DNA of 64,000 nt. It comes from Paracoccus everestensis (GTDB lineage: Bacteria; Pseudomonadota; Alphaproteobacteria; Rhodobacterales; Rhodobacteraceae). Both the position numbers and the translations under genes were made by a program. This document shows, piece after piece, positions 35,522 to 46,744 of the stretch. The stretch covers positions 792,501 through 856,500 of the forward strand of contig NZ_CP090836.1 of NCBI RefSeq assembly GCF_021491915.1. The letters run 5' to 3'. The notes beneath the pieces were generated by a model. The model saw only the letters and a program-made list of their open reading frames with translations, did not search any database and was not told where the DNA came from. Each line of letters begins with the position of its first letter. Position 1 is the first letter of the stretch.

Positions 35522-36955
35522 ATGCAGGACTTTGACCTGGTGATCCGGGGCGGCACGGTCGTGACTGCGGCGGATACCGCGCGGGCGGATGTGGGCATCC
35601 GCGACGGCAAGATCGTGACCGTCGGGCTGGACCTGGGCAAGGGCCGGCAGGACATCGACGCGACCGGGATGCGCGTGATGCCCGGTGGCATCGACAGCCA
35701 TGTGCATCTGGCCCAGCCGGCCTTTGGCGGCCCCGCCATGGCTGACGGGTTCGAAACCGGCACCCGGTCCGCCATCGCCGGCGGCAATACCACCGTGATC
35801 CCCTTTGCCCTGCAGGCGCGCGGCGCGTCCCTGCGCCAGGCGGTCGAGGATTACCATAAGGAGGCCGAGGGCCAGTCCTATTGCGATTACGGGTTCCACC
35901 TGATCCTGACCGATCCGACGCCCGCCGTGCTGGGCCAGGAACTGCCCGCCCTTGTCGCGGCGGGCTATACCTCGCTCAAGGTGTTCATGACCTATGACGA
36001 TCTGGTCCTGAACGACCGCGAACTGCTCGAGGTCTTTGACGCGGCGGGTGAGCAGGGCGCCCTGGTCATGGTTCATTGCGAGGGCTATGACGCGATCCGC
36101 TTCATGACCGAAAAGCTGGAAAAGGCGGGCAAGGTCGCGCCTTATTTTCATGCGGTGTCCCGCCCCCAGTCGGTCGAGCGTGAAGCCGCCCACCGGGCCA
36201 TCAGCCATGCCGAACTGACCGGCGTGCCGATCATGATCGTCCATGTGTCTGGCCGGGAGGCGATGGAGCAGATCCGCTGGGCGCGGAGCCGGGGCCTGAG
36301 GATCCTGGGCGAAACCTGCACCCAATACGTGTCGCTGACGGCCGAGGATCTGAAAGGCCTGAACATGGACGAGACGGGCGGCAAATATGTCTGTTCGCCC
36401 CCGCCGCGCGACCGGGAAAGCTGGGACGCCATCTGGAACGGCATCCAGACCGGGGTGTTCCAGACCTTTTCGTCCGACCATTGCCCGTTCTTCTTCGAAG
36501 GCGAGATGGGCAAGAAGAACCCCAAGGCCCGCACCGCCTTCAAATGGGTGCCGAACGGCATTCCAGGGGTCGAGGTCCGGATGCCGATCCTGTGGTCCGA
36601 GGGCGTGGTCAAGGGGCGCATCACCGAAAATGAATTCGTGGCCCTGTCATCGACCAATCATGCCCGGATCTATGGGCTGACCACCAAGGGATCCATCGCG
36701 CCCGGATTTGACGCGGATATCGTGCTGTGGGATCCTTCCCGGCGGGTGACGATCAGCCAGTCGCTGATGCATCACGGGTCGGATTACACCCCTTGGGAGG
36801 GCTACGAGGTCACGGGCTGGCCCCATGCGACGATCCTGCGGGGCGAGGTGGTGATGCTGGAGGGCGAGATCCTGGGCAGCAAGCAGGGCGGCAGGTTCCT
36901 GCCCCGCGCGCTGTCGCCCATGGCCGGTCGCGGCGCAGGCGCGCCGATGCAGTGA
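35522..36955 (+). CDS. hydA: dihydropyrimidinase/D-hydantoinase
   Basis: This 477-residue amidohydrolase opens cyclic diamides such as hydantoins or dihydrouracil. Metal-binding and catalytic motifs are present: GGIDSHVHL near residue 55, the carboxylated lysine in TSLKVFMTYDD near 155, VHCEG near 187, IVHVSG near 240, and DHCPF near 320. The length is normal for the family. It faces the end of a minus-strand operon with asparaginase, CE4 deacetylase and CobW genes (three bases between stops). Dihydropyrimidinases also hydrolyse cyclic imides, so it may belong to the same substrate range. Confidence 0.92.
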   Translation: MQDFDLVIRGGTVVTAADTARADVGIRDGKIVTVGLDLGKGRQDIDATGMRVMPGGIDSHVHLAQPAFGGPAMADGFETGTRSAIAGGNTTVIPFALQARGASLRQAVEDYHKEAEGQSYCDYGFHLILTDPTPAVLGQELPALVAAGYTSLKVFMTYDDLVLNDRELLEVFDAAGEQGALVMVHCEGYDAIRFMTEKLEKAGKVAPYFHAVSRPQSVEREAAHRAISHAELTGVPIMIVHVSGREAMEQIRWARSRGLRILGETCTQYVSLTAEDLKGLNMDETGGKYVCSPPPRDRESWDAIWNGIQTGVFQTFSSDHCPFFFEGEMGKKNPKARTAFKWVPNGIPGVEVRMPILWSEGVVKGRITENEFVALSSTNHARIYGLTTKGSIAPGFDADIVLWDPSRRVTISQSLMHHGSDYTPWEGYEVTGWPHATILRGEVVMLEGEILGSKQGGRFLPRALSPMAGRGAGAPMQ

Positions 36956-36958
36956 CGT

Positions 36959-37918
36959 TCAGCCGCCAAAGCGGCGCCAGGACTGGGCGATCCGGTCGCC
37001 GTCCATGCCGCGTCCGATCAGCACGATCACGTCCTCCTCGGGGGGCGGGCCTGCAAGGGCGTCGTTGTCGGGCAGGATCTCGGGCGGCTGGACGACCCGG
37101 CGCACCGATTGCAGCAGCAGGCGACCGGCAGGGGTGCGAACCACGCCCTTGATGCGCACGATGTCGTCGCCCCTGGCGTGGATCAGGGCAGACAGCCAGG
37201 TGGACAAGGCCACCCATCCGCCCTGCCCGACATCCAGGCGATAGGGCAGGATCGGCTGGACCGCGGACAGGGCGGGCAGGGCGAACGGCGTCATTCCGTC
37301 TTGCACCGGCGGCAGGGGGACCGCGACGCCCTGTTCGGCCGCCGACAGCACGGCGGCGGGATTGATCTGGTGCAGCGTCAGCGCCAGACGCCCCAGCGTT
37401 GCGGGATCGGCCCCTGCGGGCTTGGTCAGGATCAGGTCGTCGGCTGACTCGATCTGGGCGCGTGCAAGGGTTTCGCCCGCCAGTTGGCTGGCGCCGTGCA
37501 GGCTGTCCACCAACACCAGTGTTTGCGCCACCGACAGGCGGCGCGTCAGCACGGGGTCGGCCGCGATCGCCGCCGCGATCCGGCCGGGGTCGGCCAGGCC
37601 GCTGGTTTCCAGCAGGATCCCCGCAATCCGGCCTGCATCCCTGCCGCTGGCCGCATCACAGATCCGGCGCAGGGCGGCAAGCAGGGCAGGCAGCCCGGTG
37701 CAGCAGGCGCAGCCGCCTGCCAGCACGTCGATTCGATTGGCCCCCGCCAGCAGAAGGTTGTCCACCGGTGTTTCGGCTGCCTCGTTGACAAGGACATGGT
37801 GCCTTCCGAACCGGCCCATGTGCAACTGGTGGCGCAGCCAGGTGCTTTTCCCGGCACCCAGGAAACCGCCCAGGATTGTCAGCGGCAGGCGGCCGTCCAA
37901 ACGCGGCAGGTCAACCAT
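36959..37918 (-). CDS. CobW/COG0523 family GTPase, putative metallochaperone
   Basis: This 319-residue P-loop GTPase has Walker A GGFLGAGKST at residues 17-26. The metal-binding GGCACC motif of the COG0523 family lies near 68-73, with LLETSGLADP and LILTKPAGAD (in place of NKXD) further on. A short CobW C-terminal domain starts near 205. These proteins insert zinc or other metals into target enzymes. It is the last gene of the operon and overlaps the 97-residue CxxC gene by eight bases. The operon's deacetylase and the facing hydantoinase are metal enzymes and possible clients. Confidence 0.88.
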   Translation of the reverse strand: MVDLPRLDGRLPLTILGGFLGAGKSTWLRHQLHMGRFGRHHVLVNEAAETPVDNLLLAGANRIDVLAGGCACCTGLPALLAALRRICDAASGRDAGRIAGILLETSGLADPGRIAAAIAADPVLTRRLSVAQTLVLVDSLHGASQLAGETLARAQIESADDLILTKPAGADPATLGRLALTLHQINPAAVLSAAEQGVAVPLPPVQDGMTPFALPALSAVQPILPYRLDVGQGGWVALSTWLSALIHARGDDIVRIKGVVRTPAGRLLLQSVRRVVQPPEILPDNDALAGPPPEEDVIVLIGRGMDGDRIAQSWRRFGG

Positions 37919-38204
37919 CCGCCAGGGCCAGGTCGGACAGCGGATCCACGGGTCGTCCGGCCATCCGTTCGGCGGCCGCCCACAGCGCGGCCAGATCGGA
38001 CACCAGTTCGCGCTGTCCGCCCGGCGCGAACAGCTGCAAGCCGGGGGTCGCGCCGTCGTCCCATGCCTTCAGCCCATAGGGCGCCAGAAGGCGGTTCACC
38101 GTCCCCAGCCGGGCAAAGCGCAGGCGCAGCCGGTCGCCCGGGGTCTGCGCGCCCGCATCCGTCCAATGGCCGGGGGCTGCCGGAAAGCCGCAGGCGCTGC
38201 ACAT
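37911..38204 (-). CDS. small CxxC protein of unknown function in the imide/amide operon
   Basis: This 97-residue protein begins MCSACGFPAAPGHW and carries a single CxxC at residues 2-5. It is otherwise polar and helical with no signal peptide or membrane segment. It starts six bases after the deacetylase gene and overlaps the CobW start by eight bases. I do not recognise a family. The N-terminal cysteines and the coupling to a CobW metal chaperone suggest a metal-binding partner or client, which is inference from position. Confidence 0.75.
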   Translation of the reverse strand: MCSACGFPAAPGHWTDAGAQTPGDRLRLRFARLGTVNRLLAPYGLKAWDDGATPGLQLFAPGGQRELVSDLAALWAAAERMAGRPVDPLSDLALADG

Positions 38205-38210
38205 GGCGTT

Positions 38211-39113
38211 CTAGATCACCTCGGGCCGCTTGCCGGATGCGAAGGGATAGCGTGCGCGGAAATCGTCGGCGATCTCCTCGAAGGTGGCCCATTCCACGCC
38301 GTCATGGCTGTTGATATGGTCGATCAGCCGTTCCAGCATCAGCAGCACCTGGGGACGGCCCGCGACGTCGGGATGGATGGTAAAGGCGAACACGCCGTAA
38401 TCCATCTCGCGATACACCCAGTCGAACTGGTCGCGCCACATTTCCTCGATATGGCGCGGATTGACAAAGCCGTGGCTATTGGGCGCCTTTTTCATGAACA
38501 TCATCGGCGGCAGGTCGTCCACATACCAGTTGGCTGCGATATCGACGAGGTCGATCTCTTTCCCGTGCTTCAGCGGGTGCATCCATTCCTTGGCTTGCTT
38601 GGTATAGTCGATGGTGTTCCATTCGTCGCCCACGCGGGCGTAGAAGGGCTGGAAATCGCGATAGCCCTGCGAATGGTCATAGCTGAAATTGTATTTTTGC
38701 AGCAACGCGGCGGTGGAATTCGACATCTCCCACCAGGGCGCGACATAGCCGCGCGGGGCGCGGCCCGTCAGCCCCTCAATCAGTTCGATGGACTTGACCA
38801 GCACGTCTTCTTCCTGCTGGGGGGTCATGGCAATGGGATTTTCGTGCAGATAGCCATGCGCGCCGACCTCGTGACCGCCGTCCACGATCATCCGCATCTG
38901 GTCGGGAAAGGTTTCCAGGGAATGACCGGGGATGAAGAAGCTGGTGCGCAGGTCGTATTTCTTGAACAGCCGCAACAGGCGCGGGATGCCAACCTCGGTC
39001 GCAAAGATGCCCCGCTGGATGTCGGACGGGCTGTCGCCGCCGCCATAGGATCCGATCCATCCGGCGACGGAATCGATGTCGGTGCCGAAGGCGCAGTAGA
39101 TTTTCTTGGTCAT
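38211..39113 (-). CDS. CE4 (polysaccharide deacetylase-fold) hydrolase, imidase-like
   Basis: This 300-residue NodB-fold enzyme has the catalytic Asp region [15 protein letters not shown] near residues 11-25. Metal ligands lie in [13 protein letters not shown] near 90, and other motifs are YVAPWWEMS and [11 protein letters not shown]. The lack of a signal peptide argues against a peptidoglycan target. The [11 protein letters not shown] segment and length of about 300 match cytosolic members such as PuuE-type allantoinase and the Pseudomonas cyclic-imide hydrolase. With an asparaginase and importer in one operon, ring opening of an imide or ureide is more likely than polysaccharide deacetylation. 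Overlaps the asparaginase gene by four bases. Confidence 0.82.
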
Positions 39114-40129
39114 CGTGATCTCCGTGGAAAGGGGATTTCGGGATCTTCGGCCCGCCAGGACAGGTCGGTGAAATCGTCGAACCGGTCCGGGCCGCCAGTC
39201 ATCAGCGACAGCATTAGCACCAGCCGGGCTTTCAGCGCGTCCAGATCGCCGCTGCCTTTCAGCCCCCGGTTCAGCAGGTCGATTTCCCCGCCCGCCTGGC
39301 CATAGGTCCGCGACAGCACGCGCCCGCCCCGCGTCCGGCTGGAAAAGACCACGGGGATGCGTTTGGCCGCAGCCGACAGCGGATCCAGCCAGGGGGACTG
39401 CACATGGCCGCCGCCCGCCAGATCCAAGACAAGCCCGGTGGCGCCTTCGTCAAGGCAAGCCTGGACCAGCAGGGGCGGATCGGACAGGCCGGGCTTCAGG
39501 ATCGGCACAAAGGGCAGGGGCGCGTCGGGCGGCACGTCGAATCCAGGGCTGCGTGGCGGCCTTGCGTAAAGGATGGGCCGCCCTTCGGCCATCCATCCCA
39601 AGGGCGCGGGGGACCAGAAGGCCCCCGTGGACGAGGTGTCGCGTTTCTGCACCCAGGCCGCCTGATGGATCACGTCGTCAAAGGCGACAATGACGCCCAG
39701 GTTGCGGCAGCCGGGGTCCGCCGCGCAGGCCACGGCGGCCAGAAGGTTGGCGGGCCCGTCCGCACCGGGCAGCGAGGGGTTGCGCATGGCACCTGTGACC
39801 ACGACCGGCACCGATCCCCGGTGCAGCAGGTTCAGCACGAACGCGGTTTCCTCGATGGTGTCGGTGCCCTGCGTGACCACGATTCCGGTCGTGCCCCCGT
39901 TCTCGTGCGCGCGGATCGCCGCCGCTAGGTCGAACAGTAGCGGCAACCCGATCTCGGTCGAGGGCAGGTTTGACAGGTTCCCCGCGTGGATCTGCGCCAA
40001 GGCGTCCAGTTGCGGGACGGCGGCGACCAGATCGGCACCCGTCAGGCCGGGCGCCACGCCGCCTGCGCCTGCATCGGGGGTGCAGGCGATGGTGCCGCCC
40101 AGGGCGATGATCTCGACCCGGGGCTTCAT
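39110..40129 (-). CDS. asparaginase/glutaminase family amidohydrolase
   Basis: This 339-residue protein has both asparaginase threonine motifs: [11 protein letters not shown] at the N-terminus and [12 protein letters not shown] near residue 88. The GAMRN block near 116 and a C-terminal domain follow. There is no signal peptide, so it acts in the cytoplasm, unlike periplasmic type II enzymes. Its ATG directly follows the TAG stop of the ATPase gene. In this operon its substrate may be a half-amide produced by ring opening rather than free asparagine; this is inference. Confidence 0.87.
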
Positions 40130-41245
40130 CTAATCCTCGTGCGGGGTGCCGGCCGAATCGTTCCGGCCCGGCAGGTAATGGTTCAGGGCCGCGTCCCAGG
40201 CGGCGTGGACGGTTTCTCCCACGCGGCGGGGATGGGCGAAGTAATCCTCGTCGTTCAGATAGATCATGAATTCCTCGTGCAGGCCGGTGTCCAGGGCGAC
40301 CTTGACGAAGGTGCCCTGGTATTCGACGTTGACGACGGTGCCGGAAATGCCGTTGCGCGCCTGTGGGTCCGGTCGGATCGCGATGCGGTCCCGGCGCACG
40401 GAAAAGCGCAGATCCTGACCCGGTTCGACGCCCTTGGCGGCGGGCAGGTCATGGGAAACCCCGTTCGGTCCCGTCACAACGGCAACGGTTCCGTCGATGC
40501 GTTCGACCCTGCCGCCCAGCACGTTCTGCCCGCCCATGAAGCGCGCGACATAGGGGCTGTGCGGGCGATTATAAACGTCTCGCGGGCTGGCGGCCTGTTC
40601 GATCAGCCCGTGGTCCATCACCACGACCTGGTCGGCCAAGGCGATGGCCTCGGGCTGGGTATGGGTCACGTGGATGAAGGTGATGCCCAGGTCGTTCTGC
40701 AACCGCTTAAGTTCCACCCGCATCTTCAGCCGCAGGAACTCGTCCAGGGCCGAGAGCGGCTCGTCCAGCAGCAGGACCTTGGGGTTGGTGATCAGCGCGC
40801 GGGCCAGGGCCACGCGCTGCTGCTGGCCGCCGGACAGCTCCGACGGCACCCGGTCGGCCAGGTGCAGAAGCTGGACCCGGTCCAGCATCTCGCGCGCGGC
40901 GCGCCGGCGTTCGTCGGCCCGCACGCCCTTGACCCGCAGGCTGAAGGCCACGTTGTCGGTCAGCGACAGATGCGGGAACAGGGCATAGCTCTGGAACATC
41001 AGCGCCGTGCCCCGGCTGCCGGTGCGGGCCGTGGTCACATCGGTCCCCCCGATGAGGATGGTTCCCGATGTCGGCGTCTCGTGCCCGGCGATCATCCGCA
41101 GCAGGGTCGTCTTGCCGCAGCCCGACGGGCCGATCATGCAGCAATAGGCCCCGCCGTCGATGGCCAGATCGACGTTGTTGACCGCCTTCACCGGCCCGTA
41201 AAGCTTGGTGACGTTGCGGATGTCGATGCGGCTTTGTTCGGTCAT
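40130..41245 (-). CDS. spermidine/putrescine-type ABC importer ATPase (PotA-like)
   Basis: This 371-residue ATPase has Walker A GPSGCGKTT near residue 39, signature LSGGQQQRVALARAL, Walker B VLLLDEPLSALD and switch His in VTHTQPEA. A C-terminal TOBE domain follows from about 270. Polyamine-type importers, which take varied amines and opines, share this layout. It overlaps the permease gene upstream by four bases and is directly followed by the asparaginase gene, so imported substrate is probably processed by the downstream enzymes. Confidence 0.9.
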   Translation of the reverse strand: MTEQSRIDIRNVTKLYGPVKAVNNVDLAIDGGAYCCMIGPSGCGKTTLLRMIAGHETPTSGTILIGGTDVTTARTGSRGTALMFQSYALFPHLSLTDNVAFSLRVKGVRADERRRAAREMLDRVQLLHLADRVPSELSGGQQQRVALARALITNPKVLLLDEPLSALDEFLRLKMRVELKRLQNDLGITFIHVTHTQPEAIALADQVVVMDHGLIEQAASPRDVYNRPHSPYVARFMGGQNVLGGRVERIDGTVAVVTGPNGVSHDLPAAKGVEPGQDLRFSVRRDRIAIRPDPQARNGISGTVVNVEYQGTFVKVALDTGLHEEFMIYLNDEDYFAHPRRVGETVHAAWDAALNHYLPGRNDSAGTPHED

Positions 41246-42081
41246 TCAGTCTTTCCCTTGGCGCGCGACCGTTGTTTCTGGATGACGGCGATGGCCACAA
41301 AGGCCGCCGCGATCACCAGGAAGCTGACGGCCGAGGTCACCGTCCCAATGGCATAAAGCGCGGGCGTGGTGACATTGGTGGTCATGTTGGAAATCTCGAT
41401 GGGCAGGGTGTTCCGGCCCCCCACGGTCAGAAGCGACCGCGGCATCTCGTCATAGGACAGGGTGAAGCCGAACAGGGCGACGGCAATCAGGCCGGGGAAC
41501 AGGATCGGCACGGTGACAAGGCCCAGCACCTGCCAGGGCCGGGCGCCTGCGTCCCGCGCCGCTTCCTCCCACGATCCGTCAAAGCGGTTCAGCACGGCGA
41601 ACATGATCAACAGCCCGAAGGGCAGGGTCCAGCTGAGATGCGCGCCAAGGCCCGACATCCACCAGGACAGCCGCAGGCCAAGCAGCTGGAAGAACTGGCT
41701 GATGCCCAGGCCCAGAAGGATGCCGGGAACGATCAGGCTGACGATCGACAGATAGAAGATCGGTCCCGCCCCCCAGAACCTGCGGCGGAACCCCAGTGCG
41801 GCGAACAGGCAGACCGTGGCCGTGATCGCCATCGCCATGACGCTCAGCATCAGCGACCGGCGGAACGCCCCGCCCAGATCGCCATAGCGGCTGGAGGTCC
41901 ACAGGTCGTTGAACCAATGCGTCGAAACCCCCCGCATCGGGAATGTCAGCCCGCCGGTCGGCCCTTGGAAGCTGAGGATGAAGATCATCAGCATCGGTCC
42001 GTACAGGAACAGCACGAACAGCGCGAAGAACGCCGCCAGGACATAGAAATCGGCACCCCGCCGCGTGGATGTCTGTGACAT
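41242..42081 (-). CDS. PotC-like ABC permease
   Basis: This 279-residue inner-membrane permease has six predicted helices. The N-terminal FYVLAAFFALFVLFLYGPMLMIFILSF segment is typical of PotC. The EAA loop is WEEAARDAGARPWQVLGLVTVP near residue 172. It overlaps the ATPase gene by four bases and lies nine bases after the PotB-like gene. It forms the channel with that protein. Confidence 0.9.
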   Translation of the reverse strand: MSQTSTRRGADFYVLAAFFALFVLFLYGPMLMIFILSFQGPTGGLTFPMRGVSTHWFNDLWTSSRYGDLGGAFRRSLMLSVMAMAITATVCLFAALGFRRRFWGAGPIFYLSIVSLIVPGILLGLGISQFFQLLGLRLSWWMSGLGAHLSWTLPFGLLIMFAVLNRFDGSWEEAARDAGARPWQVLGLVTVPILFPGLIAVALFGFTLSYDEMPRSLLTVGGRNTLPIEISNMTTNVTTPALYAIGTVTSAVSFLVIAAAFVAIAVIQKQRSRAKGKTE

Positions 42082-42090
42082 GACCGCCCC

Positions 42091-42963
42091 CTACCGCGCC
42101 AGTTCGGCGCGGATATCCACAACCCGCAGGATCGCGGACACCATCAGCACCACCACCAGGATCAGCAGCACCGCCATGGCCGAGGCCTGGGGATAGAACA
42201 GCTGGTCGATCTCGTTCTTCATGGCCGAGACGACCGAGGCGCTTTGCCCACCGCTCATCACCCGGACGACGAAGAAATCGCCCATCACCAGCGTGACCAC
42301 AAAGATCGAGCCAAGCGCGATGCCGGTCTTGGACAGGGGAATGATGACGCCAGTCAGGATCTGCCAGGAACTCGCGCCCGCGTCGCGCGCGGCCTCGATC
42401 AGGTTGGGGTTGATCTTGGCCATGCTGTTGAAGATCGGCACGATCATGAACAGCGTGAACAGGTGGATATAGGTCAGCACCACCGCGAAATCGGAATACA
42501 GCAGCACGTCCAGCGGCTGGCTGACCAGTCCCGCCCCGATCAGCATCTGGTTGAACAGCCCCTCGCGCCCCAGGAAGGGGATCCAGCTGACCATGCGGAT
42601 CACGTTCGAGGTCCAGAAGGGGATCGTGCACAGCAGGAACAGCCCTATCTGCCATTTCAGGTTCCGCACGTGGAAGACCAGGAAATAGGAACAGGTAAAG
42701 CCGATCAGCACCGTGGCCACCAGGACGATGGCCGCGTATTTCAGCGTGTTGACAAACAGCGACAGCGTGACGCCAGCCGTCAGCACATCGCGGTAATTCT
42801 GCAAGGTGAAGGCGGGATAGACGGATATCCCGTCCGATTCCCAGAAGCTGAGCAGGACCACCGTGCCGATGGGAATGCCGACCATGGCCAGCATGATGAT
42901 GGCAAGCGGCGCCACCTGAAGATAGGGGGTCAGGCGCGTTCCGCCCGTCGATTGCGCGGACAT
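42091..42963 (-). CDS. PotB-like ABC permease
   Basis: This 290-residue inner-membrane permease has six predicted helices, starting with LTPYLQVAPLAIIMLAMVGIP. The EAA loop is LIEAARDAGASSWQILTGVIIPLSKTG near residue 189. It is the first permease after the binding-protein gene, separated from it by 63 bases that contain a GC-rich hairpin. Together with the PotC-like protein it forms the transport pore. Confidence 0.9.
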   Translation of the reverse strand: MSAQSTGGTRLTPYLQVAPLAIIMLAMVGIPIGTVVLLSFWESDGISVYPAFTLQNYRDVLTAGVTLSLFVNTLKYAAIVLVATVLIGFTCSYFLVFHVRNLKWQIGLFLLCTIPFWTSNVIRMVSWIPFLGREGLFNQMLIGAGLVSQPLDVLLYSDFAVVLTYIHLFTLFMIVPIFNSMAKINPNLIEAARDAGASSWQILTGVIIPLSKTGIALGSIFVVTLVMGDFFVVRVMSGGQSASVVSAMKNEIDQLFYPQASAMAVLLILVVVLMVSAILRVVDIRAELAR

Positions 42964-43026: not shown

Positions 43027-44325
43027 TCAGGCCGAGATGAACTCGTTCCAGCGCTGGACCATATAGCGTTCCTCGTCCATCACGGTGTTCCAGCAGGCGA
43101 CGTTGCCCATCCGGTCCTCGAACGATCCGCCGTCGCGCACGGCGCCGGCCTTATCCATCACGGCGCCATAGGGATCCAGGATATCCTCGGTCGCGGGCTT
43201 GCCTTCGTACCAATAGCCCACTTCGTTCGGGGACAGGTTGGCCTTGGCGGTTTCGGGCACCGACGAATAATATCCCTGGCGCGCGATGAACGCACCCTGC
43301 CAGCCGGTCAAATACCAGTTCATGTATTCATAGGCCGCTTCCAGCTTCAGCCCTTCCAGATGGCCCATCAGGCCCATCCCCAGGCCCCAGCCGCGATAGC
43401 CTTCCTTGAGGCCCTGATAGACGCAGCCGATGCCGCGCGACTTCACCGCGGTCACGGCGGGCGACCACATCGACTGGATCACCACCTCGCCCGCAGCCAT
43501 CAGGTTGACGGATTCGTCGAAGGTGCTCCAGAAGGCGCGGAACTGGCCTGCCTTCTTCAGCTCGATCAACCGATTGATGGTGTGGTCGATCTCGTCCCGG
43601 GTCATGTTGCCCTTGTCGCCATAGGTGATCTCGCCCATCGCCTCGAGCGCCATGGCGGCGTCCATGATGCCGATCTGCGGGATGTTGACCAAGGCGGTCT
43701 TGCCCTTGAATTCCGGGTTGAACAGCTCGGCCCAGCTTTCGACGGGCCGCCCGATCAAGTCGGACCGGATGCCCACCGTGTCGGCGTTGTAGATGGTGGG
43801 CATGGTGGTGGCGAAATCGGTCGCCTGGGCCGCAAAGGACGTGTCGCCGGGGCCGCCCGTATACATCACCTCAAGGGGCATGGTGCCTTGGCGGGACAGG
43901 TCGGATCCGTCGAAGTTCTTGCCGTCCTTCATCAAGGGCGTCATCTTCGACCAGTTGGCGATCTTGGCGATTTCGACGGGCTGCAGCTTGCCCGATCGCC
44001 AGACCTTCTGCATGGCCCAGAATTCCAGGTCGGCGATGTCGATGGTTTCAGGCTGGCTGACCACCTTGGTCATCAGCGCGGTGCTGTCGGCGGTCTGCGG
44101 GACGATCGTGAAGCCCAGGTCGGCGCTGGCCTTCTCCGCGATATCCGCGATGACGGAATAGGACGGCCCGACCTGGTTCAGCGTCACGTCCCTGATGTTC
44201 TGCGCCCAGATCATCGGCGCGCCCAGGATACCCGTCCCGGCGGCCGCCCCCGTGGCCGCGGCCGTTGTTTTGAGGAACCGCCGCCGTGTCAGGCCCGCGC
44301 GATCCTTCCCGTGTGATTGTGTCAT
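43027..44325 (-). CDS. PotD-like periplasmic binding protein with Tat signal
   Basis: This 432-residue solute-binding protein carries a twin-arginine signal (TRRRFLKTTAAATGAA, cut after IWAQ near residue 42). The body has the spermidine/putrescine-type fold, with a GYRGWGLGMGL segment near 315 and ARQGYYSSVPE near 354. Tat export suggests folding in the cytoplasm before export. ATG 44325 was chosen over the longer frame because GGGAGA lies upstream. It leads the eight-gene operon and has a close paralogue without a signal, encoded at 45587-46744. Confidence 0.9.
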   Translation of the reverse strand: MTQSHGKDRAGLTRRRFLKTTAAATGAAAGTGILGAPMIWAQNIRDVTLNQVGPSYSVIADIAEKASADLGFTIVPQTADSTALMTKVVSQPETIDIADLEFWAMQKVWRSGKLQPVEIAKIANWSKMTPLMKDGKNFDGSDLSRQGTMPLEVMYTGGPGDTSFAAQATDFATTMPTIYNADTVGIRSDLIGRPVESWAELFNPEFKGKTALVNIPQIGIMDAAMALEAMGEITYGDKGNMTRDEIDHTINRLIELKKAGQFRAFWSTFDESVNLMAAGEVVIQSMWSPAVTAVKSRGIGCVYQGLKEGYRGWGLGMGLMGHLEGLKLEAAYEYMNWYLTGWQGAFIARQGYYSSVPETAKANLSPNEVGYWYEGKPATEDILDPYGAVMDKAGAVRDGGSFEDRMGNVACWNTVMDEERYMVQRWNEFISA

Positions 44326-44565
44326 CTCGTCTCTCCCAGTTGGACGCCGTGCGGGTTGCACGGGTTTTCCCGGTCCGGGCCTGTTCTGCGGCCTTCTCGA
44401 CTCGGAAAGCAGTACGGATACGGTAGCAAACTGTCCTTAGGATGCAATGCACATTCCATTTGCGAAGGGGGAAAGCGCGGCGCAAGATCGGGGTCAGGCA
44501 TTCGCGGGAACGGGCGGCACCTGCCCGGGAAATCCGCCTGATCCTTGTGCAGGAAAAGAATTGGC

Positions 44566-45594
44566 ATGGGCCTTGCCGGAACGGAAAAGCAGGGGGAGGG
44601 CGCGCCGCCGGGCAGCGCGTTCTTTTATGCCTCGGTCCGCGACCTGCTGGCAGGCAAGATCAGATCCGGCGAACTGCCTGCCGGCACGGTCCTGAAGGAA
44701 GCGCCGATCTCTGGCCAATTGGGGATGAGCAGGGCGCCCGTGCGCCGGGCGCTGATCCTGCTGGCCGAAGACGGCCTTATCACCCCGGCGGCGGGGCAGG
44801 GCTATGTGGTGGGCGGATCGCGCACCCCCCTGCGCCTGTCGTCCCGCCGCCTGCACGAGATCCTGACGGCCCAGGCCGACGACATCGGCCGCACCGCGTC
44901 GTGGGAACGGATCTTTTCCCAGGTGGCCGAGGCCGTGACCGCCTGCATGCCCTTTGGCACCTTTCGCATTCAGGAAAGCGAGCTTGGCGATTTCCACAAT
45001 GTCAGCCGCACCGTCGCGCGCGAGGTGCTGTGGCGCCTGATGGACCGGCGCCTGATCGAGAAGAACCGGAAGTCCCACTGGATCGTCGGCCAGATGACCG
45101 CGCGGGATCTGCGCGACACGCTGCAGATGCGCCGCCTGCTGGAACCCGAGGCATTGTCCCAGGTCGCCCCCGACTGGGCCGAGGCCCGGTCGGACGCGCT
45201 GCTGGCCCGGGTCGAGGCCGCGATCGCCGCCTTTCCGGCCTGCGGGGCGGCGGTGGTCGATCACCTGGAGGCGGCGATGTTCGTGGATATGTATGACGGC
45301 GTGCGCAATTCGCGCCTGCTGGGGTCGATCCGGCGCAACCAGTTGTCCCTGCTGGTCCCGCGCCTGTTCCGGCGGCATTTTCCGATCATCGACGACCTGC
45401 CCGCCCTTCACGAATATGCCGGGATCCTGCGCTATCTTCGGCAAGGGGACGTGCCGCAGGCACGCGATGTCCTGCACCGCCACCTGGTCCGGGTCGAAGC
45501 CCTTGTGCTGGCGCGGCTGCGCGTCCTGTCGCTGCTGGAGCCGCCCGATATGCCCCCCTATATGACGCCCGTTTACAGGGACCGCGATGGCTAG
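44566..45594 (+). CDS. GntR-family regulator with two winged-helix domains
   Basis: This 342-residue regulator begins with a GntR winged helix (residues about 20-80: VRDLLAGKIRSGELPAGTVL, SRAPVRRALILLAEDGLI). A second winged-helix-like unit lies at about 100-170 (WERIFSQVAEAV, NVSRTVAREVLWRLMDRRLI), then an FCD-like helical domain to about 325. One of the usual FCD metal His positions seems lost (MFVDMYDG). ATG 44566 follows AGGAAAAG; a TTG seven codons earlier is less likely. It is divergent from the importer operon, its likely target. It overlaps the next gene by eight bases. Confidence 0.85.
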   Translation: MGLAGTEKQGEGAPPGSAFFYASVRDLLAGKIRSGELPAGTVLKEAPISGQLGMSRAPVRRALILLAEDGLITPAAGQGYVVGGSRTPLRLSSRRLHEILTAQADDIGRTASWERIFSQVAEAVTACMPFGTFRIQESELGDFHNVSRTVAREVLWRLMDRRLIEKNRKSHWIVGQMTARDLRDTLQMRRLLEPEALSQVAPDWAEARSDALLARVEAAIAAFPACGAAVVDHLEAAMFVDMYDGVRNSRLLGSIRRNQLSLLVPRLFRRHFPIIDDLPALHEYAGILRYLRQGDVPQARDVLHRHLVRVEALVLARLRVLSLLEPPDMPPYMTPVYRDRDG

Positions 45595-46744
45595 GGCGTT
45601 GCGCGTAATCGGAACATCGGCCACCCTGACCGAGGCCTTGCGGCGCCAGGCCCATGCCGATCTGGAATTTCCCGTTGAATTCGAGGTGCTGGACGGCCTG
45701 TCCTGCCAAAGCCGGGGCGTGTTGTCGCCGGAAAGCTATGACGTTTACGACCAATGGTTTCATTCGCTGGACCTGTTGTGGACGGCAGGGTCGATCCAGG
45801 CCATCGACACAGGGCGCATCCGGCATTGGCCGCAGGTCCGGGCGTCGGGGGTCTTTGCGGATGGCGGGCAGGGGTTCGGGACGCGCCCGGCCGACATCCT
45901 GTTCGTCCAGCCCGATCGCAGCCTGTCGGCCGCGCCCGGCCGGGCGATCTCGATGCTGCCCACGACGTATAACGTGGACAGCTTCGCCTATGCGCCGGAA
46001 CTGGCGGCACGCCGCCGTCCGGGCGAACCCGAAAGCTGGGCCTGGCTGCTGGACGACCGCTGGCACGGGCGCTGCGCCCTCAGCCTGGATCCGGCCGCCA
46101 GTGCCATGGAACTGGCGCTGGCCGTCCAGGCCGCCGGGCTGATGCGCGTCGGCGATCCGGGCTGCCTGGCCATCGAGGAGATCGACGAGATGTTCGGGCA
46201 CCTGATGGCCCGCAAGCGCAGCGGCCATTTCAGCCGCTTCTGGACATCGGCCGAGGATTCGATGCGGCTTGTGTCCGCATCGGGCTGCGTCCTGTCCTCG
46301 CTGTGGTCCCCGGCCTATTACGGCATGAGGGCGCTTGGCCATGACCTGACCTATGCCGCCCCGGTCGAAGGCTATCGCGGCTGGCATTCCGGGATGTGCC
46401 TGTCGGCGGCCACGGAAGGTGAAGGGCTGGAGATGGCCTATCGTTACCTGAACTGGTGGCTGGACGGCGTGCCCGGGGCGATCATGGCGCGGCAGGGATA
46501 TTATATCTCAGTCCCGGAACCGTTGCGCGACACACTGACGGACGGGGAATGGGATTACTGGTATGGTGGCCTGCCCGCCGCCCAAGACCTGACGGACAGG
46601 TCGGGCCGGATCGTTGTCCATGCGGGCGAAACCCGTGAAGGCGGCGGCTATCGCCAGCGTTTGTCCAAGGTCGCGGTCTGGAGCACGATCATGCCGGAAC
46701 ACAACTATCTGGTCCGGCGCTGGCACGAATTCCTTCAGGCGTAA
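45587..46744 (+). CDS. cytosolic paralogue of the PotD-like binding protein (no signal peptide)
   Basis: This 385-residue protein is clearly homologous along its length to the binding protein at 43027-44325. Both share EGYRGW, YLNWWLDG/YMNWYLTG, ARQGYY-SVPE, YWYGG/YWYEG and the C-terminal YLVRRWHEFLQA/YMVQRWNEFISA. It starts directly at the mature domain (MARALRVIGTSATLTEALR) with no Sec, Tat or lipoprotein signal, so it should stay in the cytoplasm. The ATG lies inside the end of the GntR gene, giving coupled translation. A ligand-sensing partner of the regulator is my inference; a decayed transporter part is the alternative. Confidence 0.85.
   Translation: MARALRVIGTSATLTEALRRQAHADLEFPVEFEVLDGLSCQSRGVLSPESYDVYDQWFHSLDLLWTAGSIQAIDTGRIRHWPQVRASGVFADGGQGFGTRPADILFVQPDRSLSAAPGRAISMLPTTYNVDSFAYAPELAARRRPGEPESWAWLLDDRWHGRCALSLDPAASAMELALAVQAAGLMRVGDPGCLAIEEIDEMFGHLMARKRSGHFSRFWTSAEDSMRLVSASGCVLSSLWSPAYYGMRALGHDLTYAAPVEGYRGWHSGMCLSAATEGEGLEMAYRYLNWWLDGVPGAIMARQGYYISVPEPLRDTLTDGEWDYWYGGLPAAQDLTDRSGRIVVHAGETREGGGYRQRLSKVAVWSTIMPEHNYLVRRWHEFLQA

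Follow-up and report, generated by a model that had tools for sequence, protein, structure and literature searches.

We analysed a 64,000-nucleotide stretch of the single-contig Paracoccus everestensis genome of 2,957,008 bases (the window; NZ_CP090836.1, positions 792,501 to 856,500) and focused on two overlapping plus-strand genes. The first (44566..45594) encodes a 342-residue GntR/FCD regulator with tandem winged helices, as judged from its open reading frame (ORF), Pfam, alignment and predicted structure, and the second (45587..46744) encodes a 385-residue substrate-binding protein (SBP) of PotD/YdcS fold that has no export signal (ORF, AlphaFold model, PDB match and tree). They share 8 bases, ATGGCTAG (45587..45594, plus strand), comprising the SBP start and the GntR stop, an overlap consistent with translational coupling. 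Both genes diverge from a minus-strand operon for a PotABCD-type ATP-binding cassette (ABC) importer and enzymes, whose own 432-residue SBP (43027..44325, minus strand; ORF, Pfam/NCBIfam) carries a twin-arginine translocation (Tat) motif (TIGR01409, 23.7 bits against a cut-off of 16.7). The ORFs bore out the layout described in a first-pass annotation made from the sequence alone (a Tat-bearing SBP, a GntR gene and a signal-less SBP, the latter pair divergent and overlapping by eight bases), and the full-length homology it claimed for the two SBPs also held, with the mature lengths aligning at 134 of 391 identical positions (34%). One-component regulators normally carry their sensor and DNA-binding parts on one chain; the pair described here is, in our judgement, quite probably a split version of such a regulator, with a cytosolic PotD-fold SBP serving as the ligand sensor that acts on GntR.

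The absence of an export signal, by which the 45587..46744 protein departs from periplasmic PotD-type binding proteins, proved to be real. The frame is open for 392 codons and the protein uses 385 of them, so that the 7 codons upstream of the ATG leave no space for a missed signal peptide; this possibility, which the first-pass annotation had named as a refutation, is ruled out. The AlphaFold model (pLDDT 91.4) found its best PDB match in YdcS (6nlp; TMq 0.72, Foldseek E 4.1e-19), and the Pfam SBP_bac_8 score was 20 bits, under the gathering cut-off of 27. The protein has the fold and a distant sequence similarity in common with PotD, PotF and YdcS, but it is without their signal peptide. Its closest relative, from Paracoccus actinidiae, is 97% identical, relatives in other families are 48–51% identical, and 28 columns, R264 and W266 among them, are invariant across 31 aligned signal-less sequences. 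Some of these relatives are publicly named 'signal peptide prediction' (H1, H5, H7-H11; P0062, P0328, P0332); they have no signal, which is only likely for the ones not individually checked, and the name may reflect an annotation problem. Proteins annotated as ABC substrate-binding proteins or as 'signal peptide prediction' can be signal-less and probably regulatory.

The predicted structure of the GntR protein had a mean pLDDT of 89.8. Pfam detected only the first winged helix (PF00392, residues 21-82, 44626..44811, plus strand; 63.5 bits, cut-off 27), whereas the second (residues ~111-175, 44896..45090, plus strand, boundaries approximate) was recognised from the secondary structure of the model, the alignment and fused relatives, three of the four scanned (P0244, P0249, P0255) having two PF00392 stretches. 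The two winged helices reported earlier are in this way upheld, and the FCD domain (PF07729, residues 184-307, 45115..45486, plus strand; 32.6 bits, cut-off 24.3) is an addition to that description. FCD-subfamily GntR proteins have a single winged helix, but model and alignment place two here, the second occupying the position of the helix-turn-helix (HTH) of ordinary GntR/FCD proteins. The model matched the FCD-type regulators TM0439, VanR/Atu1419 and PmiR in part, over ~210-235 columns, with TMq at most 0.51, a value suggesting that about one winged helix goes unmatched; the window GntR further differs from them in its degenerate metal site and its partner SBP. These comparisons suggest that the second winged helix and the FCD domain resemble a normal GntR protein and that the first winged helix is the extra one.

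We then asked how widely the pair is conserved. Scanning GTDB species genomes gave 104 matching places; we retained the 80 best as loci and sorted them by N-terminus and context into 54 signal-less, 14 Tat-bearing and 12 importer-type SBPs. This classification relied on the Tat motif and on hydropathy, both judged by script and eye and not with a program for signal peptides, and many of the rows are closely related to one another (Ensifer, Agrobacterium vitis). GntR genes were called at >70 BLAST bits within loci and at E 1e-30 or 1e-50 in whole genomes, and the Fisher tests on the association counts ignored relatedness. A window-type GntR lay in the flanks (up to 9 kb) of 28/54 signal-less loci, 0/14 Tat loci and 0/12 importer-type loci. 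Whole-genome searches of the 26 signal-less cases without a near GntR, together with 2 that had one, found it in 26 of 28, raising the total to 52 of 54 signal-less genomes, with 51 on the same contig (28 in the flank, 23 beyond it) and one, L023, on a different contig from its SBP. No window-type GntR was found in the 14 Tat genomes searched whole, and among the 12 importer-type controls only G047 gave a match, a genome with its own adjacent GntR/signal-less SBP pair.

A second sample, an even set of 398 Pseudomonadota genomes, yielded 69 with a match, and we took the 35 above 320 bits, excluding the host genome and leaving out G471, a partial match of 276 bits, and everything under 265 bits; species overlap with the first set is possible. 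All 29 Tat-type SBPs in this sample had a kinase-like gene adjacent and none had the GntR in its genome (0/29), whereas the 6 signal-less ones had GntR on the same contig in 5 cases and a kinase in the stretch examined in none. In the sixth, G656, the 16,550-base contig ends shortly upstream of the amidase gene, which is the place of GntR in L142, L145 and L149. Regarding class assignments, L142 was counted as signal-less despite a longest ORF reaching 80 codons upstream, because that stretch lies within cobW and MITLRVLG is also where its congeners L145, L148 and L149 begin; L154, despite its low hydropathy (0.78), was assigned to the Tat class for its twin-arginine motif. The first-pass annotation had proposed looking for GntR genes near signal-less PotD homologues elsewhere, and the pairing is indeed conserved, in 52/54 and 5/6 genomes.

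The reverse test covered 289 alphaproteobacterial genomes, scoring up to 7 (GntR) or 6 (SBP) candidates per genome. GntR matches occurred in the host genome, in G135 (adjoining its SBP) and in G067, G163, G187 and G296, and for the last four no linked signal-less SBP was found among the candidates scored; G006, G024 and G047 hold a second tandem-HTH GntR without an adjacent SBP. These cases rule out the proposition that a tandem-HTH GntR always implies a signal-less SBP. They comprise eight unpaired tandem-HTH GntR loci (L088-L092, L095-L097); SDR-like genes lie close in L088 and L090-L092, and TRAP-transporter-like ORFs, identified by eye only, occur in L089-L092 and L096.

Searching with the window GntR and SBP joined into one query revealed 14 natural fusion proteins (P0244-P0257, 683-806 residues) that match 92-100% of its length with 43-45% identity, in the order HTH-HTH-FCD-SBP. 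The fusions are 66-92% identical among themselves, and their linker has no membrane-like segment. All 4 scanned contain PF00392 and FCD, and SBP_bac_8 was found in 2, once above and once below the cut-off; the longest contigs carrying a fusion are 1.36 Mb (P0249), 152 kb (P0255) and 105 kb (P0245). The trees included the SBP part of 6 of the 14 and the GntR part of 5. The six SBP parts fall inside the signal-less group, where they sit with L053, L069 and the protein from G047 (support 99), lineages in which the GntR and SBP genes are adjacent, and these nine rows join the eleven-row group of the window (92). Because the fusions cluster together, a single fusion event may lie behind all of them. 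Together with the conserved partnership, the fusions make it very probable that the SBP serves the regulator as its sensor.

In the SBP tree, the signal-less proteins formed one group (45 rows, SH-aLRT 88) neighbouring a Tat/kinase group (12 rows, 100), with the importer SBPs (40 rows) apart from both. In the GntR tree built without fusions, the 47 paired rows occupied one side of a branch (86). Both trees were quick reconstructions in which the key branch is moderately supported, and near-duplicates had been dropped beforehand (14 loci from the SBP tree, 3 from the GntR tree). In 14/14 loci of the Tat group, a histidine kinase gene with two transmembrane (TM) segments directly follows the SBP gene, overlapping it or within 34 bases, and the two hydrophobic segments of the kinase lie 263-290 residues apart. 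No potABC-like genes were found in the available flanks of these loci (0/14), and the SBP-kinase layout was found in none of the signal-less loci (0/54 in the first sample, 0/6 in the second). Tat-bearing PotD-like SBPs beside a two-TM kinase, with no potABC in the stretches examined, were seen at L026, L030, L047, L130-L141 and others; such loci apparently constitute a dedicated periplasmic sensor system. Since the sister group is paired with kinases and lacks potABC, the nearest relatives of the signal-less SBPs look like sensors rather than transport parts. Sensory periplasmic SBPs that work with a histidine kinase are exemplified by TorT-TorS and LuxP-LuxQ; the Tat sister group matches their layout, whereas the window SBP is signal-less and has a GntR partner.

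The tree also bears on origin. The first-pass annotation had taken the signal-less SBP for a duplicate of the transporter subunit, a view not supported by its closer relation to the kinase-associated Tat SBPs, nor by an Agrobacterium plasmid on which a GntR/SBP pair neighbours an ABC importer whose gene sizes speak against the PotD type (they suggest Dpp/Opp type). A recent duplication of the importer subunit is ruled out by the SBP tree and the 34% identity. Of the earlier reading, the sensor partnership therefore stands, backed by the conserved pairing and the natural fusions, and the local-duplication origin is not supported.

The metal site of FCD domains consists of Asp/Glu and three His. 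It was complete in 8/8 unpaired tandem-HTH GntRs and in 21/50 paired ones, and degenerate in the remaining 29, including that of the window (E235, F239, Y284, H306); the degenerate sites belong to the window's group, a Rhizobiales/Roseobacter group and L025. The metal site thus seems dispensable with an SBP partner, though it is not always lost.

We also characterized the divergent intergenic region, which contains a candidate operator, AACTGTCCTTAGGATGCAATGCACATTC (44429..44456, plus strand). It represents a shared 28-bp palindromic motif with the consensus AAATGaTTTTTGTATGCAATAtTCATTT, which under left-one-out scoring fitted 34 of 41 GntR upstream regions, in each of which 0/100 shuffles did as well. 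Five near-duplicates were dropped before the model was made, its seed was picked by eye from the same regions, and four loci with GntR downstream of the SBP were set aside. The window site scored 23.3 left-one-out, against at most 6.5 in 100 shuffles, and is the sole place in the window above 17 bits. Across 28 sites, a mean of 8.3 of 14 pairs matched compared with 4.1 after shuffling, the sites having been selected with a palindromic seed. The GntR upstream regions of the four set-aside loci reached at most 9.1 bits, and 3 of the 4 have a 19-24-bit site elsewhere in the locus. The model found 1 place in 209 kb of the first Tat loci, none in 167 kb of importer-type loci and a site in 1/29 later Tat loci. 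Similar sites occur at some unpaired tandem-HTH GntR loci (L090, L092, L096, L097), so the operator seems to be a property of this type of GntR rather than of the pair alone. L142, L145 and L149 gave weaker sites of 11.1-13.6 bits with an altered core (control, plain base shuffling); their GntR-amidase divergent regions carry AAATGTA/TACATTT-type palindromes, each with a different core, which are perhaps a variant operator. A scan of the divergent region for sigma-70 promoters found nothing.

On this basis we propose the following mechanism. GntR would bind an operator within the 240 bp of divergent promoter sequence, controlling the importer/catabolic operon and probably also its own gene. 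The signal-less SBP would remain in the cytosol and bind the imported compound or a breakdown intermediate, likely a cyclic ureide or imide or its ring-opened acid. Ligand-bound or empty, it would then contact GntR, presumably by direct binding, and alter its DNA binding, with derepression as the expected outcome. As far as sequence comparison can tell, the fusions and the exchange of signalling partner strongly favour this sensor role. With more reserve, although still on the favourable side, we suggest that a single sensor lineage uses two modes of coupling, one exported and read by a kinase, the other cytosolic and read by a tandem-winged-helix GntR, either separate or fused, and that the winged helices of a GntR dimer read a nested palindrome (outer AAATG/CATTT, inner TTGnATnCAA). 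If true, split one-component regulation of this kind would be a new class, and one sensor lineage would have crossed the membrane and switched its signalling partner. The coexistence of split, fused and kinase-coupled relatives would allow direct tests of how binding proteins gave rise to the sensor domains of regulators, and of the exchange between two-component and one-component signalling; the pair is also a possible modular biosensor for ureide/imide-type compounds.

Binding-protein folds serve as regulator sensor domains in the LysR and LacI families, where the sensor is covalently joined, whereas here it is a separate PotD-type protein. The first-pass annotation knew of no described system with this exact layout, and open-access literature, at the level of listings and abstract openings, likewise gave no description of a split GntR-SBP arrangement. 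The nearest published analogue found is SgrR/DsvR, which is an HTH transcription factor with a C-terminal SBP_bac_5 solute-binding domain (PMC13060122), and is alike in using a binding-protein fold as the second domain of a transcription factor. SgrR/DsvR is one chain with another HTH family and SBP_bac_5, whereas the window has a GntR/FCD protein with two winged helices and a separate SBP_bac_8-type chain. The one-chain arrangement of SgrR, absent from the separate genes of the window, is present in the 14 fused relatives, with GntR/FCD and an SBP_bac_8-type part.

Several observations weigh against a split regulator. The 23 same-contig GntRs outside the flanks stand 9-27 kb from their SBP, no GntR match was found genome-wide for L022 and L068 (signal-less, on short metagenome-assembled contigs), and the stretches of 6.4-19.5 kb examined around the eight unpaired tandem-HTH GntRs contain no signal-less SBP. 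Adding 5 fusions to the GntR tree meant that the paired GntRs no longer formed one side of a branch, and the support of the unpaired ones dropped to 73. Of nine GntR upstream regions outside model building, only 3 passed 17 bits (L093 19.6, L129 30.0, L165 32.2) and six did not (L094, L128, L142, L145, L149, L164), so that the motif is either confined to certain lineages or variable in its core. In 11/54 signal-less loci, the start of the SBP gene shares 4 bases with the end of cobW at its stop. Finally, the FCD metal site is complete not only in 21/50 paired GntRs but, by eye, also in 5 of the 6 fusions printed (P0254 has Tyr), which means that the FCD domain may still sense. This last point underlies a doubtful yet serious alternative, namely that ligand sensing proper takes place in the FCD domain and that the role of the SBP is limited to modulating it, for instance by sensing a different compound or by delivering the ligand as a chaperone; in the window's and the Rhizobiales/Roseobacter groups, the degenerate site makes the usual metal-dependent working unlikely.

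The cobW overlap, in turn, fits a metabolic role, in which the SBP would be a substrate carrier, an enzyme subunit or a partner of CobW or the deacetylase, and GntR merely the cluster regulator. We consider this role unlikely. It draws on the frequency of deacetylase-like (46/54) and CobW-like (38/54) genes in the flanks, compared with 28/54 for GntR in the same flanks. The fusions, however, join the SBP to GntR (SBP-enzyme fusions were not looked for), and the pair occurs without cobW or deacetylase genes in the available flanks of L053, L069, L070, L074, L075 and L079 and in 26 kb of the Agrobacterium plasmid. The SBPs of the sister group are partnered by kinases, and none of these enzymes occurs in their flanks (0/14). 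GntR and SBP distances correlated at r=0.91 (n=44 loci), below deacetylase-importer SBP (0.99) and deacetylase-CobW (0.95) on their own sets; when six pairs were compared over the same 20 loci, GntR-SBP ranked highest at 0.955, with deacetylase-CobW close at 0.939. It is very improbable that the target of the SBP is the cytosolic face of the importer, as transport feedback, instead of the regulator: importer genes lie near most signal-less loci (potA-like 44, potB-like 36 and potC-like 37 of 54), but the fusions are to a DNA-binding protein, and the plasmid pair stands beside an importer of another type by gene sizes. A functionless, decaying duplicate of the importer SBP, a reading suggested by the absent signal and the low Pfam score, has practically no probability left, since it is contradicted by the conservation of the signal-less SBP in other families, in one tree group and in its invariant columns.

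The remaining genes of the locus bear on the ligand of the proposed split regulator. On the minus strand, Pfam/NCBIfam identified a PotB-like permease (42091..42963), a PotC-like permease (41242..42081), a PotA-like ATPase (40130..41245), an asparaginase-family enzyme (39110..40129), a polysaccharide-deacetylase/PuuE-fold enzyme (38211..39113, also matched to solved structures) and a CobW-family GTPase (36959..37918). Beyond the CobW end of this operon, the plus strand encodes a dihydropyrimidinase (D-hydantoinase; 35522..36955; TIGR02033 and NF009941, both above cut-off). Other loci have amidase, HyuA/HyuB, 5-oxoprolinase-like and carboxylase-like genes near the pair, and the Agrobacterium plasmid pair is accompanied, by annotation, by a hydantoinase A/B pair, an aspartate/glutamate racemase, a Zn-dependent hydrolase and an amidohydrolase besides the ABC importer. 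These neighbours point to cyclic ureides, imides or hydantoins as the ligand class. The acidic polyamine contacts of PotD, which we take to be D168, E171 and D257, align to non-acidic residues in the window SBP, which makes a polyamine improbable as the ligand.

Between the deacetylase and CobW genes lies an ORF for a small protein of 97 residues (37911..38204, minus strand), relatives of which (~110 residues elsewhere) occur in 22/54 signal-less loci and in L008-L010 and L013, conserved in this position; the relative in L034 (L034:7521-7853) had no Pfam or NCBIfam match. The top sequence match of the deacetylase-fold enzyme among solved structures was H. pylori HP0310 (3qbu, 483 bits), and the ureide/imide context of its gene may help to name the activity of the atypical 'peptidoglycan deacetylase' family of HP0310.

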